From assembly GCF_004217225.1 (NCBI RefSeq), contig NZ_SHKM01000001.1, forward strand, positions 1,588,137-1,652,136: a stretch of DNA of 64,000 nt, in the 5' to 3' direction. The notes beneath the pieces were generated by a model. It was not told where the DNA came from, made no database searches, and saw only the letters and a program-made list of their open reading frames with translations. The DNA comes from Azospira oryzae (GTDB lineage: Bacteria; Pseudomonadota; Gammaproteobacteria; Burkholderiales; Rhodocyclaceae). Position 1 is the stretch's first letter. Each line of letters starts with the position of its first letter. The position numbers were made by a program, and so were the translations under genes. Positions 36,842-45,892 of the stretch are shown here, piece after piece.

Positions 36842-37983
36842 GCGCCCCCACCACCTGGACCCCGCTCGGCCTGGGACTGGCCGGCGCCGCCTGGTCCCTG
36901 GGCCAGGGCGGCAGCACGGCCGGCGGCATCGGCGGCGCCCTGCTGCTGGCGCTCGCCGGGGCAGCCGGCGCCTGGTATGGCCGGCAGCACAGCCGCCTGC
37001 TGCAGGAACGGCTGGCCGCAGCCCTGGCGGCCGGTGCCCGGGGCGAGGCGGAGGAACGCCAACGCCAGGCGGGACTGACCGCCCAGGTGCACAGCATCGA
37101 AGGCCACATCCTGCCCATCTGGCGCAAGCAGCTGACCCTGGTCGGCGAGCAGACGGAAACGGCCATCGCCGCCCTCTCCTCCCGCTTCGCCGGCATTGTG
37201 GACGGCCTGGAAGCCAGCGCCCGGGCCTCCGACGCCTCGGTGGGCGGCAATCTGCTGCAGACCCTGGAGCACAGCCGCCGGGAACTGGACGCCCTGCTCG
37301 CCACCCTGGCCGGGCTGCTGGCCAACAAGCGCCGCATGCTGGAAGAGATCGGCCGCCTCGCCGCCTTCACCGACGAACTGGATGCCATGGCCCAGGGGGT
37401 CGGCCGCATCGCCGGCCAGACCAACCTGCTGGCCCTCAACGCCGCCATCGAGGCGGCCCGGGCCGGCGATGCGGGGCGCGGCTTCGCCGTGGTCGCCGAC
37501 GCGGTGCGGGAGCTTTCCAACGAATCGGCCGGCACCGGCCGGCGCATCGCCGACAAGGTGCAACTGGTCAACGAGGCCATCCACGGCGCCCTGCAGGCGG
37601 CGGACCAGGGCGCCCTGGCGGACGAGCAGGCCCTGGGCCAGGCCCAGCACTCGGTGGCGGGAATCCTCGAAGGCTTCCAGCGCGTCACCGGCGACCTGGC
37701 GGACACCGCCAACACCCTGCGCCGGCAGCACCAGGGCATCCAGCAGGAAGTGGCCGAATCCCTGGTCTCCCTCCAGTTCCAGGACCGCATCGGCCAGATG
37801 CTGGGCCACGTCCGCCAGGACATGGAAAGGCTGGAGCGGCACCTGGCCACCGGGCCGGACCACCTGGACGCCCAGGATTGGCTGGACAACCTGGCCAGCA
37901 CCTACACCACGGCCGAGCAGCACGCCGTGCATGGCGGCAAGAGCAGCCAGGCACCGGCCGACTCCGACATCACCTTCTTTTAG
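36838..37983 (+). CDS. Short methyl-accepting-type receptor with a CheZ-like C-terminal motif
   Basis: 381 residues. An N-terminal hydrophobic hairpin (about 8-50) has no periplasmic domain. A cytoplasmic coiled coil follows with the receptor hairpin tip ([20 protein letters not shown], then [13 protein letters not shown]). Beyond the signalling domain the chain reads [16 protein letters not shown]315-D316 and Q320 in QDRIGQ match the CheZ phosphatase motif QDLTGQ (D and Q four apart). It may therefore both signal to CheA and dephosphorylate a receiver; the second role is inference. It senses something cytoplasmic or membrane-borne. It overlaps the preceding receiver gene by four bases. Confidence 0.8.
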
Positions 37984-40960: not shown

Positions 40961-43132
40961 ATGACCCTCAAACAACGCCTCATCCTGCTGATCAGCAGCG
41001 CCGCCCTCGGCCTGATCGTCCTCGCCGGTCTCTCGGCCTACCAGATCGAGCGGGTATTCACCATCACCAACTATTCCAACGTCAACTCCCTGCCCTCGGT
41101 GCGGGTGCTGCAGGAAGCCTACGTGCCCCTGGCCAGCATTCGGGCCCAGGTGTGGCAGCACATCACCCTGGAGGACAAGGGACGCATGGCCGAGATCGAA
41201 GGCCGTATCAACACCAACATGGCCAAACTGGAAGACTCGCTGAAACGCTATGAGAGCCTGGTCTCGGACGAGAAGGACCGGCAGCTGCTGCGCGACGACC
41301 GGGACGCCCTGGAAGCCTACCGCCAGGTGCGGGAACAGACCATGGCCCTCTCCCGGGAGAACCGCATGGCCCAGGCCCGGGACTACCTGCTGGCCAACCA
41401 GGCCGCCTTCAACCGCATCAACGACGCTTTCCTCGCCCACCTGCAGTACAACCTGGACCTGGGCACCCAGTCCGCCAAGGAGGCGGAAAGCCTGAGTAGC
41501 GCTGCCGAATGGCAGTCCGCCGTTCTCAGCGGCATCACCCTGGTGCTGGTGGTGGGTCTGGGCATCCTCATCATGCGCTCCGTCTCCCGCCAGCTCGGCG
41601 CCGACCCCGCCATGGTGGCCGCCTGCGTCGATCGGGTGGCCCAGGGCGACCTGTCCCAGGACATCCCCCTGGAGGGAGTGGACAAGGATGCGCTGCTGGC
41701 CAACGTGGTGCGTATGCAGACTGCCGTGCGCAGCCTCATCGACGACATGAACCACATGAGCCGGGAACACGACCTGGGCGACATCGACGTCATCGTGCCC
41801 GTGGAAAAGTACCAGGGCGGCTTCCGCACCGTGGCGGAAGGGGTGAACAACATGGTGGGCGGGCACATCGCCGTGAAGAAGAAAGCCATGGCCTGCGTCG
41901 CCGAGTTCGGCAAGGGCAACTTCGAGGCCCCCATGGAACAGCTCCCGGGCAAGAAAGTCTTCATCAACCACGTCATCGAGCAGGTCCGCGCCAACCTCAA
42001 GGCCCTCATCGAGGACACCTCCACCCTGGCCACCGCCGCCCTCCAGGGCCGCCTGGAAACCCGCGCCAATGCTGAACGCCACACCGGCGACTTCCGCCGC
42101 ATCGTGGTCGGCATCAACGACACCCTGGATGCCATCGTCACCCCGCTCAACGAAGCCATGCGGGTACTGCAGTCGGTGGAGCAGGGCGACCTGACCCAGA
42201 GCATCAATGGCAACTACCACGGCAAGCTGCAGGACCTGAAGGACTGCGTCAATAGCATGGTGGGCCGCCTCAGCACCGTGGTCGCCGAAGTGCGTACCGC
42301 CGCCGACGCCCTCAGCAACGCCAGCGAGCAGATCTCCGGCACCTCCCAGGCCCTCTCTTCTGCCGCTTCGCAGCAGTCTTCCAGCGTCGAGGAGACCAGC
42401 GCCTCCATGGAGCAGATGAGCAGCTCCATCAACCAGAACACGGAGAACGCCAGCGTCACCGACGGCATCGCCAGCAAGGCCTCCACCCAGGCGGTGGACG
42501 GCGGCAAGGCCGTCACCGACACCGTGGCCGCCATGAAGTCCATCGCCGCCAAGATCGGCATCATCGACGACATCGCCTACCAGACCAACCTGCTGGCCCT
42601 CAACGCCGCCATCGAGGCGGCCCGGGCCGGGGACCACGGCAAGGGCTTCGCCGTGGTCGCCGCCGAAGTGCGCAAGCTGGCCGAACGCAGCCAGGTGGCG
42701 GCCCAGGAAATCGGCCAGGTGGCGGGCAACAGCGTCTCCCTGGCGGAACACGCCGGCAAGCTGCTGGACGAGATCGTCCCCTCCATCAAGAAGACCTCCG
42801 ACCTGGTGCAGGAAATCACCGCGGCCTCCAAGGAACAGGCCCTGGGCGTCGGCCAGATCAACAGCGCCATGTCCCAGCTGACCCAGACCACCCAGCAGAA
42901 TGCGGCTTCCTCCGAGGAACTGGCGGCGACGGCCGAGGAAATGACCGGCCAGGCCGAGCAGTTGCAGCAGCTGATGGGCTTCTTCAACACCGGTCACGGC
43001 ACCACCCAGCGCAACGTGCAGGTACGTGGCACCAAGAAGTCCGGCCAGGCACCGCGCCAGGCATCCCGGCAGGAAAGCTGGGAAAGCGCTTCTGCCGAAG
43101 TGGAAGCTGGCGGCGACTTCGTCCAGTTCTAA
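40961..43132 (+). CDS. Methyl-accepting chemotaxis protein with four-helix-bundle sensor
   Basis: 723 residues. TM1 (about 7-27) and TM2 (about 188-206) flank a helical periplasmic domain of the 4HB_MCP type. HAMP-like repeats (about 208-440, including [10 protein letters not shown] and [12 protein letters not shown]) follow, then the signalling domain with [17 protein letters not shown] and [18 protein letters not shown]. No CheR/CheB docking pentapeptide is seen at the end (GDFVQF). It would detect a small solute outside and control the adjacent CheA. Confidence 0.94.
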
Positions 43133-43677: not shown

Positions 43678-44934
43678 ATGGAACCGGACCACAACCCCGC
43701 CGAGGATTCGCAGCAGCAACAGGTGCTGGCCGCCTTCGCCCGCTGGAGCCGCACCTACGAACTGATCCTGCACTCGGCCAGTGAAGGCATCTTCAGCCTG
43801 GATACCAACGGCTGCATCACCTTCGCCAACCCGGCTGCCTCGCGCCTGCTGGGCTGGCCGGTGGAGGACATGCTGACCCGGCCGGTGGCTGCCGTGCTCT
43901 ATGGCGACAAACCCAATCCCCTGGCGGGGGAGGCGGAGTTCCAACACCGCCGCCAGGTGTTCCTGCAGCGGGACGGTTCCAGCATTGTCGTCGAGTGCAA
44001 CCAGGCCCTGATCCTGGAGGAGGACCAGACGGTCGGCGCCGTCCTCATGTTCAACGACATCAGCGAGCGGGAACGGGCCGAACGGGCCCTGCAGGACACC
44101 CTGACCTCCCTGGAACAGACCAATCGCCGCCTGACCCAGACCCACGACCAGCTCCTCCATGCCGAAAAGCTGGCCGCCATCGGCCAGCTGGCCGCCGGCG
44201 TGGCCCACGAGATCAACACGCCCCTCGGCTACATCCAGAGCAACCTGGGCGCCATGGCCCGGCACCTGGAGGACCTGCTGACCCTGGTGGACGCCTACGA
44301 GAGCGCCGCCGGCCAGCAACCGCCCGGCCGGGAGCGCATCGACCTGGACTTCCTGCGCCAGGACGCCCCCCAGGTGCTGGCCGAAACCCGCCAGGGCATT
44401 TCCCGGGTGAGCACGGTGGTACGCCATCTCCTGGAGTTCTCCAGCACCTGCGCCAGCGGCGAATGGCGCCAGGCCGACCTGGAAGCCATCTGCCGCACTG
44501 CGGCGGAACGGGCCTGCCAGAAACGCCACAACTTCCGCCTGGAACAGCGCTACGACGCCCTGCCGCCGCTGCACTGCCTGCCGGAACGGCTGCAGCAGGC
44601 CCTGGAAAACCTCATCGACAATGCCCTGCTGGCCATCCCGGCCGAGGGCATGGTGCGCCTGCACGGCAGCTGCCCCGACGGCCGCCAGATCTGCCTGACG
44701 GTGGAGGACAACGGCTGCGGCATCGCGCCGCAGCATCTGGAAAGCATCTTCAATCCCTTCTTCACCACCCGGCCGGTGGGTTCCGGCGAAGGCATGGGAC
44801 TCTCCGTCGCCGACACCGTCGCCCGCCTCCACGGCGGCAACATCGAGGTGGAAAGCAGCCCGGGCCTGGGCAGCCGCTTCACCCTCCACCTGCCACTTCA
44901 AAACAACCTTCCTCAGGCGAAGGCAGCCGAATGA
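43678..44934 (+). CDS. Cytoplasmic PAS-domain sensor histidine kinase
   Basis: 418 residues without membrane helices: PAS (about 25-128), coiled coil (130-160), HisKA with H177 (AAGVAHEINTPLGYIQ) and HATPase (ENLIDNALLAI, NGCGIAPQ, GEGMGLSVADTV). It resembles the ZraS/NtrB-like kinases that pair with sigma-54 activators or with receiver proteins. No response regulator follows it. Its position at the end of the chemosensory group suggests that it phosphorylates the lone receiver at 36482-36841, which is inference. Confidence 0.88.
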   Translation: MEPDHNPAEDSQQQQVLAAFARWSRTYELILHSASEGIFSLDTNGCITFANPAASRLLGWPVEDMLTRPVAAVLYGDKPNPLAGEAEFQHRRQVFLQRDGSSIVVECNQALILEEDQTVGAVLMFNDISERERAERALQDTLTSLEQTNRRLTQTHDQLLHAEKLAAIGQLAAGVAHEINTPLGYIQSNLGAMARHLEDLLTLVDAYESAAGQQPPGRERIDLDFLRQDAPQVLAETRQGISRVSTVVRHLLEFSSTCASGEWRQADLEAICRTAAERACQKRHNFRLEQRYDALPPLHCLPERLQQALENLIDNALLAIPAEGMVRLHGSCPDGRQICLTVEDNGCGIAPQHLESIFNPFFTTRPVGSGEGMGLSVADTVARLHGGNIEVESSPGLGSRFTLHLPLQNNLPQAKAAE

Positions 44935-45030: not shown

Positions 45031-45058
45031 TTGCAATAATCCGGCGACAGACTATTGT
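45031..45058 (+). promoter_or_regulatory. Candidate promoter of the lectin gene
   Basis: TTGCAA (45031-45036), a 16-base spacer and TATTGT (45053-45058) lie in an AT-richer patch about 120 bases before the ATG. CAATA and TATTG arms form a loose inverted repeat over the same stretch. Confidence 0.4.
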
Positions 45059-45180
45059 TTTCCAACTGCCGTCTGCCCGCTTCTCAACCGCTCAGACGGC
45101 GGGTCGCCGGACTTCCCTGGATTGCCTTCATCATGGCACCCCCAGCCTCCGGCCTGTGCAAGATCACCAAGGAGGCAAGC

Positions 45181-45813
45181 ATGAGCAAGACCAACTACAT
45201 CATCAGGAACAATCCCAACAACGGCCCGCTGGAAGCATTCACCATCGGCCCCAATGCCGAACTCTGGCATTCGTGGCAGTCGCCCACCGGCCCCGGCGGC
45301 TGGAGCGGCTGGTCCAGCCTGGGCCGCCCAGCCGGCGTCTTCATCAGCCAGCTGGAAGTGATCGGCAACGCCAGGGACAGCGGCCCCTTGGAAGCCTTCG
45401 CCGCAGGCTCCGACGGGGCCCTCTGGCATATCTGGCAGGGCGGCGGCCAGAAGGACAACTGGAGCAACTGGGAATCCCTCGGCTCCCCCAGTCCCAAAGC
45501 CCTGATCACCTCGGTGGAAGTGGTGGAAAATGCCGGCAAGGGCACCCTGGAAGCCTTTTCCATCGCCACCGATGGCGCCCTCTGGCACAACTGGCAATCT
45601 CCCAACGGCCCGGGCGGGTGGAATGGCTGGTCGTCCCTGGGACAACCGCCGGGCGGCATTGCCATCGGCCAACTGCTGGTGGCCGAGAACGCCGGCACCA
45701 GCGGTCCCCTGGAAGCCTTCGCCCTGGGTTCGGACCGGGCCCTGTGGCACATCTGGCAGGGTGGCGGCCAGAAGGACAACTGGAGCAACTGGGAATCCCT
45801 CGGCGTGCCCTGA
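45181..45813 (+). CDS. PLL-like beta-propeller lectin with four repeats
   Basis: 210 residues made almost wholly of four blades that begin LEAF at residues 17, 70, 123 and 177. Each has the pattern LEAF-x5-D/N-x-LWH-x-WQ and ends W-x-x-W-x-SLG. Blades 1 and 3 share SPTGPGGW-type loops; blades 2 and 4 share GGGQKDNWSNWESLG. The protein thus looks like a duplicated two-blade unit. The pattern resembles the Photorhabdus PLL/PHL lectins (seven blades, binding fucose or methylated sugars). Four blades cannot close such a ring, so it may assemble as an oligomer. There is no signal peptide. A strong AAGGAGG precedes the ATG. Sugar binding is inferred. Confidence 0.75.
   Translation: MSKTNYIIRNNPNNGPLEAFTIGPNAELWHSWQSPTGPGGWSGWSSLGRPAGVFISQLEVIGNARDSGPLEAFAAGSDGALWHIWQGGGQKDNWSNWESLGSPSPKALITSVEVVENAGKGTLEAFSIATDGALWHNWQSPNGPGGWNGWSSLGQPPGGIAIGQLLVAENAGTSGPLEAFALGSDRALWHIWQGGGQKDNWSNWESLGVP
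45442..45804 (+). repeat. Direct repeat inside the lectin gene
   Basis: A 42-base stretch at 45442-45483 recurs exactly at 45763-45804, 321 bases (107 codons, two blades) later. Flanking bases are also very similar. The identity at silent positions points to a recent duplication or gene conversion of the two-blade unit. Confidence 0.85.
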
Positions 45814-45856: not shown

Positions 45857-45892
45857 AAAAAGCCCGGAATCCGTTACGGATTCCGGGCTTTT
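45857..45892. terminator. Bidirectional terminator between the lectin gene and ssb
   Basis: A perfect 16-bp stem (AAAAGCCCGGAATCCG and its complement) closes a TTA loop, with A and T runs at its two ends. It can end the rightward lectin and leftward ssb transcripts. Confidence 0.9.

Follow-up and report, generated by a model that had tools for sequence, protein, structure and literature searches.

The lectin gene and its surroundings

The locus carries an intact open reading frame for a four-bladed lectin of the PLL type, the features of which are listed in Table 1 with their positions in the window, that is, the whole stretch of 64,000 nucleotides that was analysed. A strong Shine-Dalgarno sequence lies directly 5' of the ATG at 45181, and the protein read from this start lacks a signal peptide by eye, as had been predicted. 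Two upstream in-frame starts with a signal peptide (TTG at 45055 and ATG at 45133) were considered and dropped, a good Shine-Dalgarno sequence being present at ATG 45181 only. The original prediction had also given the gene its own promoter and a strong terminator. A sigma-70-like site was not found between positions 44900 and 45950. The downstream hairpin is indeed strong, but it is placed between convergent genes; because it is common to the lectin and the convergent ssb gene, its assignment to the lectin as its own terminator is a weak claim. GC-rich hairpins with T-runs can also be read by eye just 3' of ssb in both congeners.

Upstream of the lectin are genes for a methyl-accepting chemotaxis protein (MCP), a CheW-like protein (by eye) and a PAS histidine kinase, while ssb lies downstream in the convergent orientation. 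The lectin occupies a junction that is not conserved between species: in congener G002 it is a membrane-protein-like gene, not a lectin gene, that comes after a matching kinase neighbourhood, and the neighbours of ssb in congeners G001 and G002 differ from those found here. The gene is absent from both of these congeners, is present in a single copy in its own genome, with no second gene of the kind, and is very rare in the family sample, where 3 of 296 other genomes had a match. Its GC content (66%, against 67% for the window) gives no signal of a horizontal gain judged by odd composition. Elsewhere in the window, a 115-nt repeat (37400-37514 and 42564-42678, 83% identical) has its second copy inside an MCP signalling domain, and the pair probably corresponds to two paralogous chemoreceptor genes of one cluster.

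Table 1. Features of the lectin locus, in window positions
Feature	Positions	Strand	Basis
Shine-Dalgarno sequence AAGGAGG	45168..45174 (approximate)	+	read from sequence
CDS, four-blade PLL-type lectin, 210 aa	45181..45813	+	ORF, phmmer, blade HMM, Shine-Dalgarno ahead of ATG
Blade 1 (type A), residues 3-55	45187..45345	+	identity, blade HMM, codon bootstrap
Blade 2 (type B), residues 56-108	45346..45504	+	identity, blade HMM, codon bootstrap
42-nt exact repeat, copy 1 (blade 2)	45442..45483	+	sequence self-comparison
Blade 3 (type A), residues 109-162	45505..45666	+	identity, blade HMM, codon bootstrap
Blade 4 (type B), residues 163-210	45667..45810	+	identity, blade HMM, codon bootstrap
42-nt exact repeat, copy 2 (blade 4)	45763..45804	+	sequence self-comparison
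Perfect inverted repeat of 17 bp, probably a terminator in both directions, common to lectin and convergent ssb	45858..45892		hairpin z -6.5

Blade number and the ABAB repeat

A blade HMM built from the relatives and the lectin itself gives four complete blades with equal scores of about 67 bits apiece, and the strands of the AlphaFold models agree with this count, which is the one originally proposed. Blades 2 and 4 (B) are 81% identical in both amino acids and nucleotides, and blades 1 and 3 (A) are 53% identical in amino acids and 72% in nucleotides; the remaining pairs share 44-51% of their amino acids (neighbouring blades 44-49%). In quartet distances computed on the codon alignment, the split of blades 1 and 3 from blades 2 and 4 was recovered in all 2000 bootstraps; with the identical tract removed, it was still recovered in 1967 of 2000. 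The predicted two-blade ABAB duplication is therefore real, and the 42-nt exact repeat said to accompany it was found in both B blades. Its description as recent is overstated: the NG86 estimates, rough values from short sequences, are dS 0.49 and dN 0.15 for the B copies, and dS 0.69 and dN 0.42 for the A copies. Since the 14 identical codons are clustered beyond chance (permutation p 0.011), the 42-nt tract suggests a later local homogenisation. For comparison, a seven-blade gene of another genome (L028) carries an exact repeat of 215 nt.

Relationship to the PLL lectins

Strong phmmer E-values (9.9e-72 to 3e-51) were obtained for PHL/PLL lectins only, PLL2 and PLL3 among them, the best being PHL at 9.9e-72, aligned in four stretches; with the structural match to PLL2 given below, this upholds the proposed PLL-like nature of the protein. 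Searches of Pfam, PADLOC and phage records returned no match to the lectin, and viral contigs gave none with the single protein and two with the alignment as query. The NCBIfam model NF052348 (beta propeller lectin) scores 56.9 bits (1.8e-15), under its curated cut-off of 200 bits, a threshold that does not discriminate here, as a seven-blade PLL-like protein gets only 98.4.

Seven blades are present in the complete, clearly scoring close relatives (L002, L011, L012, L013, L028, L055 and L064), L002 being a stand-alone protein. Where measured, the blades of relatives have about 46 residues; those of the window lectin, with 53-54, are 7-8 residues longer. The relatives that depart from this number are broken or ambiguous. 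Five blades are seen in L022, and L052 and L065 are short. In G508, a genome of the same family, the lectin gene L015 shows five blades and then the contig end, and another contig (L018) ends in two blades followed by a stop. The interruption falls within repeated sequence, and the two pieces, if they are one gene, amount to at least seven blades. A second clear four-blade form was not seen among the limited samples of relatives. Both the HMM and the AlphaFold strands give four blades to the window lectin where the PLL family has seven, and for this reason we do not file it as a strict family member, despite the likeness in residues and fold. It is a real, intact and rare four-blade variant of PLL-type lectins, a known kind of lectin in which the blade number is new.

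PLL-type blades also occur in other architectures among the relatives. An S8 subtilase is fused to seven such blades in Telluria (L011:4249-6966), and to three in a fragmented assembly of 480 contigs (L003:1-2007, minus strand); in L012 and L013 the blades are fused to another, unnamed domain. A predicted viral contig (L064:2272-3969) encodes a protein with seven PLL-type blades behind an unassigned N-terminal domain, which by eye resembles a peptidase. The 199-aa frame L065:2830-3426 starts like a signal peptide, covers some three blades and ends inside a blade; it is a candidate for either a short propeller or a frameshift. L015/L018 looks like a stand-alone PLL/CV39L-like lectin with no evident signal peptide.

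Sugar-binding sites

In PHL, the fucose site consists of Thr194, Trp199 and Trp214 with backbone contacts at Gly171/Val172, and the galactose site of Arg, Glu, Trp, Gln and Trp from neighbouring blades (PMC5584973). Through the phmmer alignment, by which PHL numbering was transferred, the hydrophobic (fucose) site of the window lectin retains the equivalents of W199 and W214 in all four blades, while the T194 position reads P, S, T and S in blades 1 to 4, with Ser/Thr in three of them; the Trp pair and the Thr that characterise this site are thus represented. The equivalents of E188, H200, W202, Q203 and W211 are likewise kept in every blade. At the polar (galactose) site, Glu, Trp and Gln are kept throughout, but the Arg, nearly invariant among the relatives in our alignment (A1), is replaced in all four blades (P, P, T, P), so that the set of polar-site residues is incomplete. 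It can be proposed from these residues that a fucose or O-methyl-sugar ligand is likeliest and that galactose binding is weaker. Insertions beside the sugar site lengthen the D-A loop, the location of the Gly-Val contact, and owing to these the specificity may differ.

Predicted fold and assembly

AlphaFold2 run with the 13-row alignment A1 gave a model with pLDDT 82.7 and pTM 0.81, and from the single sequence one with pLDDT 77.8 and pTM 0.72. The alignment-based model superposes on residues 81-270 of PLL2 (Z 23.2, 2.0 Å, 187 residues) and 79-268 of PHL (Z 22.8, 2.1 Å, 188 residues; Foldseek, VIA-align 2), and the single-sequence model likewise follows four consecutive PHL/PLL2 blades at about 2.5 Å, although a curvature of this kind may be copied from known PLLs or from the seven-blade rows of the alignment. 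The monomer is thus predicted to be an open arc, a half-ring corresponding to some four successive blades in a ring of seven.

Such a chain is best read as part of an oligomeric propeller, and the leading single mechanism that we can propose is an eight-bladed dimer, with a probability of roughly 0.45. Two half-rings, each of four W-motif blades, would meet head to tail, with blade 4 (B) of the first chain packed against blade 1 (A) of its partner, and would close an ABABABAB ring; because of the ABAB pattern, the junction between the chains would be chemically like the internal junction between blades 2 and 3. Closure by a second chain is suggested by four-bladed pieces of the seven-bladed WD40 propellers PkwA and WRAP, which dimerise, WRAP forming an eight-bladed ring in its crystal structure (PMC6805158). 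For ligands of the L-fucose or O-methyl-sugar type, binding would take place between blades by way of the conserved Trp pair, and the polar sites, those of the galactose type, have probably become weaker. Blade 1, where Thr is replaced by Pro, would take part in the hydrophobic site between chains. On this reading the protein is a soluble, signal-less lectin whose chains would pair, probably into this eight-bladed ring, and it would reach its ligand by some export route or by lysis; two Photorhabdus PLLs were found extracellularly even though PLLs lack signal peptides (PMC12203525).

Alternatives to this dimer have to be weighed. The gene could be a functionless relic, a shrunken and decaying seven-blade lectin, as its rarity, its absence from both congeners and the loss of the polar-site Arg in every blade would fit, and propellers whose blade number falls below that of their lineage have been read as fragments (PMC9218822). 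We consider this rather improbable: the frame is intact behind a strong Shine-Dalgarno sequence, a six-frame search of the flanks gave no blade remnants, dN is lower than dS between the copies of both A and B, the site Trp, His, Gln and Glu are kept in all four blades, and the ABAB pattern requires a duplication, not simple loss. A closed, hemopexin-like monomer, in which the longer blades permit a tighter ring, is improbable as well. Four-blade propellers exist in nature and ABAB would suit such a ring, but the extra residues are in loops rather than strands, both models fit a run of four successive blades in seven-blade PLLs (about 2.0-2.5 Å over some 187 residues), and hemopexin-type chains are absent from the structural matches listed, which is not proof. 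About as doubtful is a different oligomer, built of three or four half-rings, or one that forms no ring, such as the antiparallel dimer of a five-blade WRAP construct; oligomeric propellers are structurally diverse, but the four-blade constructs of both WD40 propellers tested dimerised (PMC6805158).

Seven-blade orthologues that reveal this copy as an assembly collapse would have counted against the original prediction; the complete close relatives do have seven blades, yet a collapse is not thereby shown. In this family, assemblies seem to be interrupted at repeats, as in the G508 gene and the three-blade L003, but a collapse from a larger number of blades (seven, or an ABAB array of six or eight) is quite unlikely for a gene inside a 1.98-Mb contig of a six-contig assembly, whose longest exact repeat is 42 nt and whose blades differ by 19-56%, when L028, with its far longer repeat, stayed at seven blades in a one-contig genome; moreover, loss of AB units cannot give four from seven, because an odd count stays odd.

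Propeller evolution and related systems

Propellers are believed to evolve by way of oligomeric forms with fewer blades, and to our knowledge few natural oligomeric propellers are known. A protein found in nature with four blades in ABAB order, from a lineage with seven, is a test case for propeller evolution, and the window lectin, easy to express, could test directly whether half-propellers pair to close and still bind sugar. We tentatively suggest, at somewhat less than even odds, that a two-blade duplication produced a naturally occurring lectin whose four-blade chains function in pairs, as a homodimeric ring of eight blades, an intermediate of propeller evolution preserved and in use. A survey of highly repetitive propellers, with a threshold (60% median identity) that the window lectin would not pass, encountered amplification from two blades a single time (PMC9218822).

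The closest known systems are Photorhabdus PHL, PLL and PLL2-5, which share with the window lectin the blade sequence and fold, the W-motif, the Trp pair of the hydrophobic site and a stand-alone protein with no signal peptide; they differ in having seven blades instead of four in an ABAB repeat, shorter blades and D-A loops, and the polar-site Arg. In the fucose lectins RSL and BambL, a sub-propeller chain closes by oligomerisation, with the sugar sites between blades. Here the likeness is analogy only, their two AAL-type blades forming a trimeric six-blade ring (for RSL oligomerisation, see PMC12203525). The WRAP and PkwA constructs share four blades from a seven-blade lineage, but are designed WD40 fragments, whereas the window protein is natural and of the lectin type. 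CV39L and BP39L are structural neighbours of the model (6gxs, Z 19.2; 6gxr, Z 15.8), at about 20% identity, and their chains are longer, with some 360 residues. The CV39L model also gives a match below its cut-off to L015, the relative from the same family.
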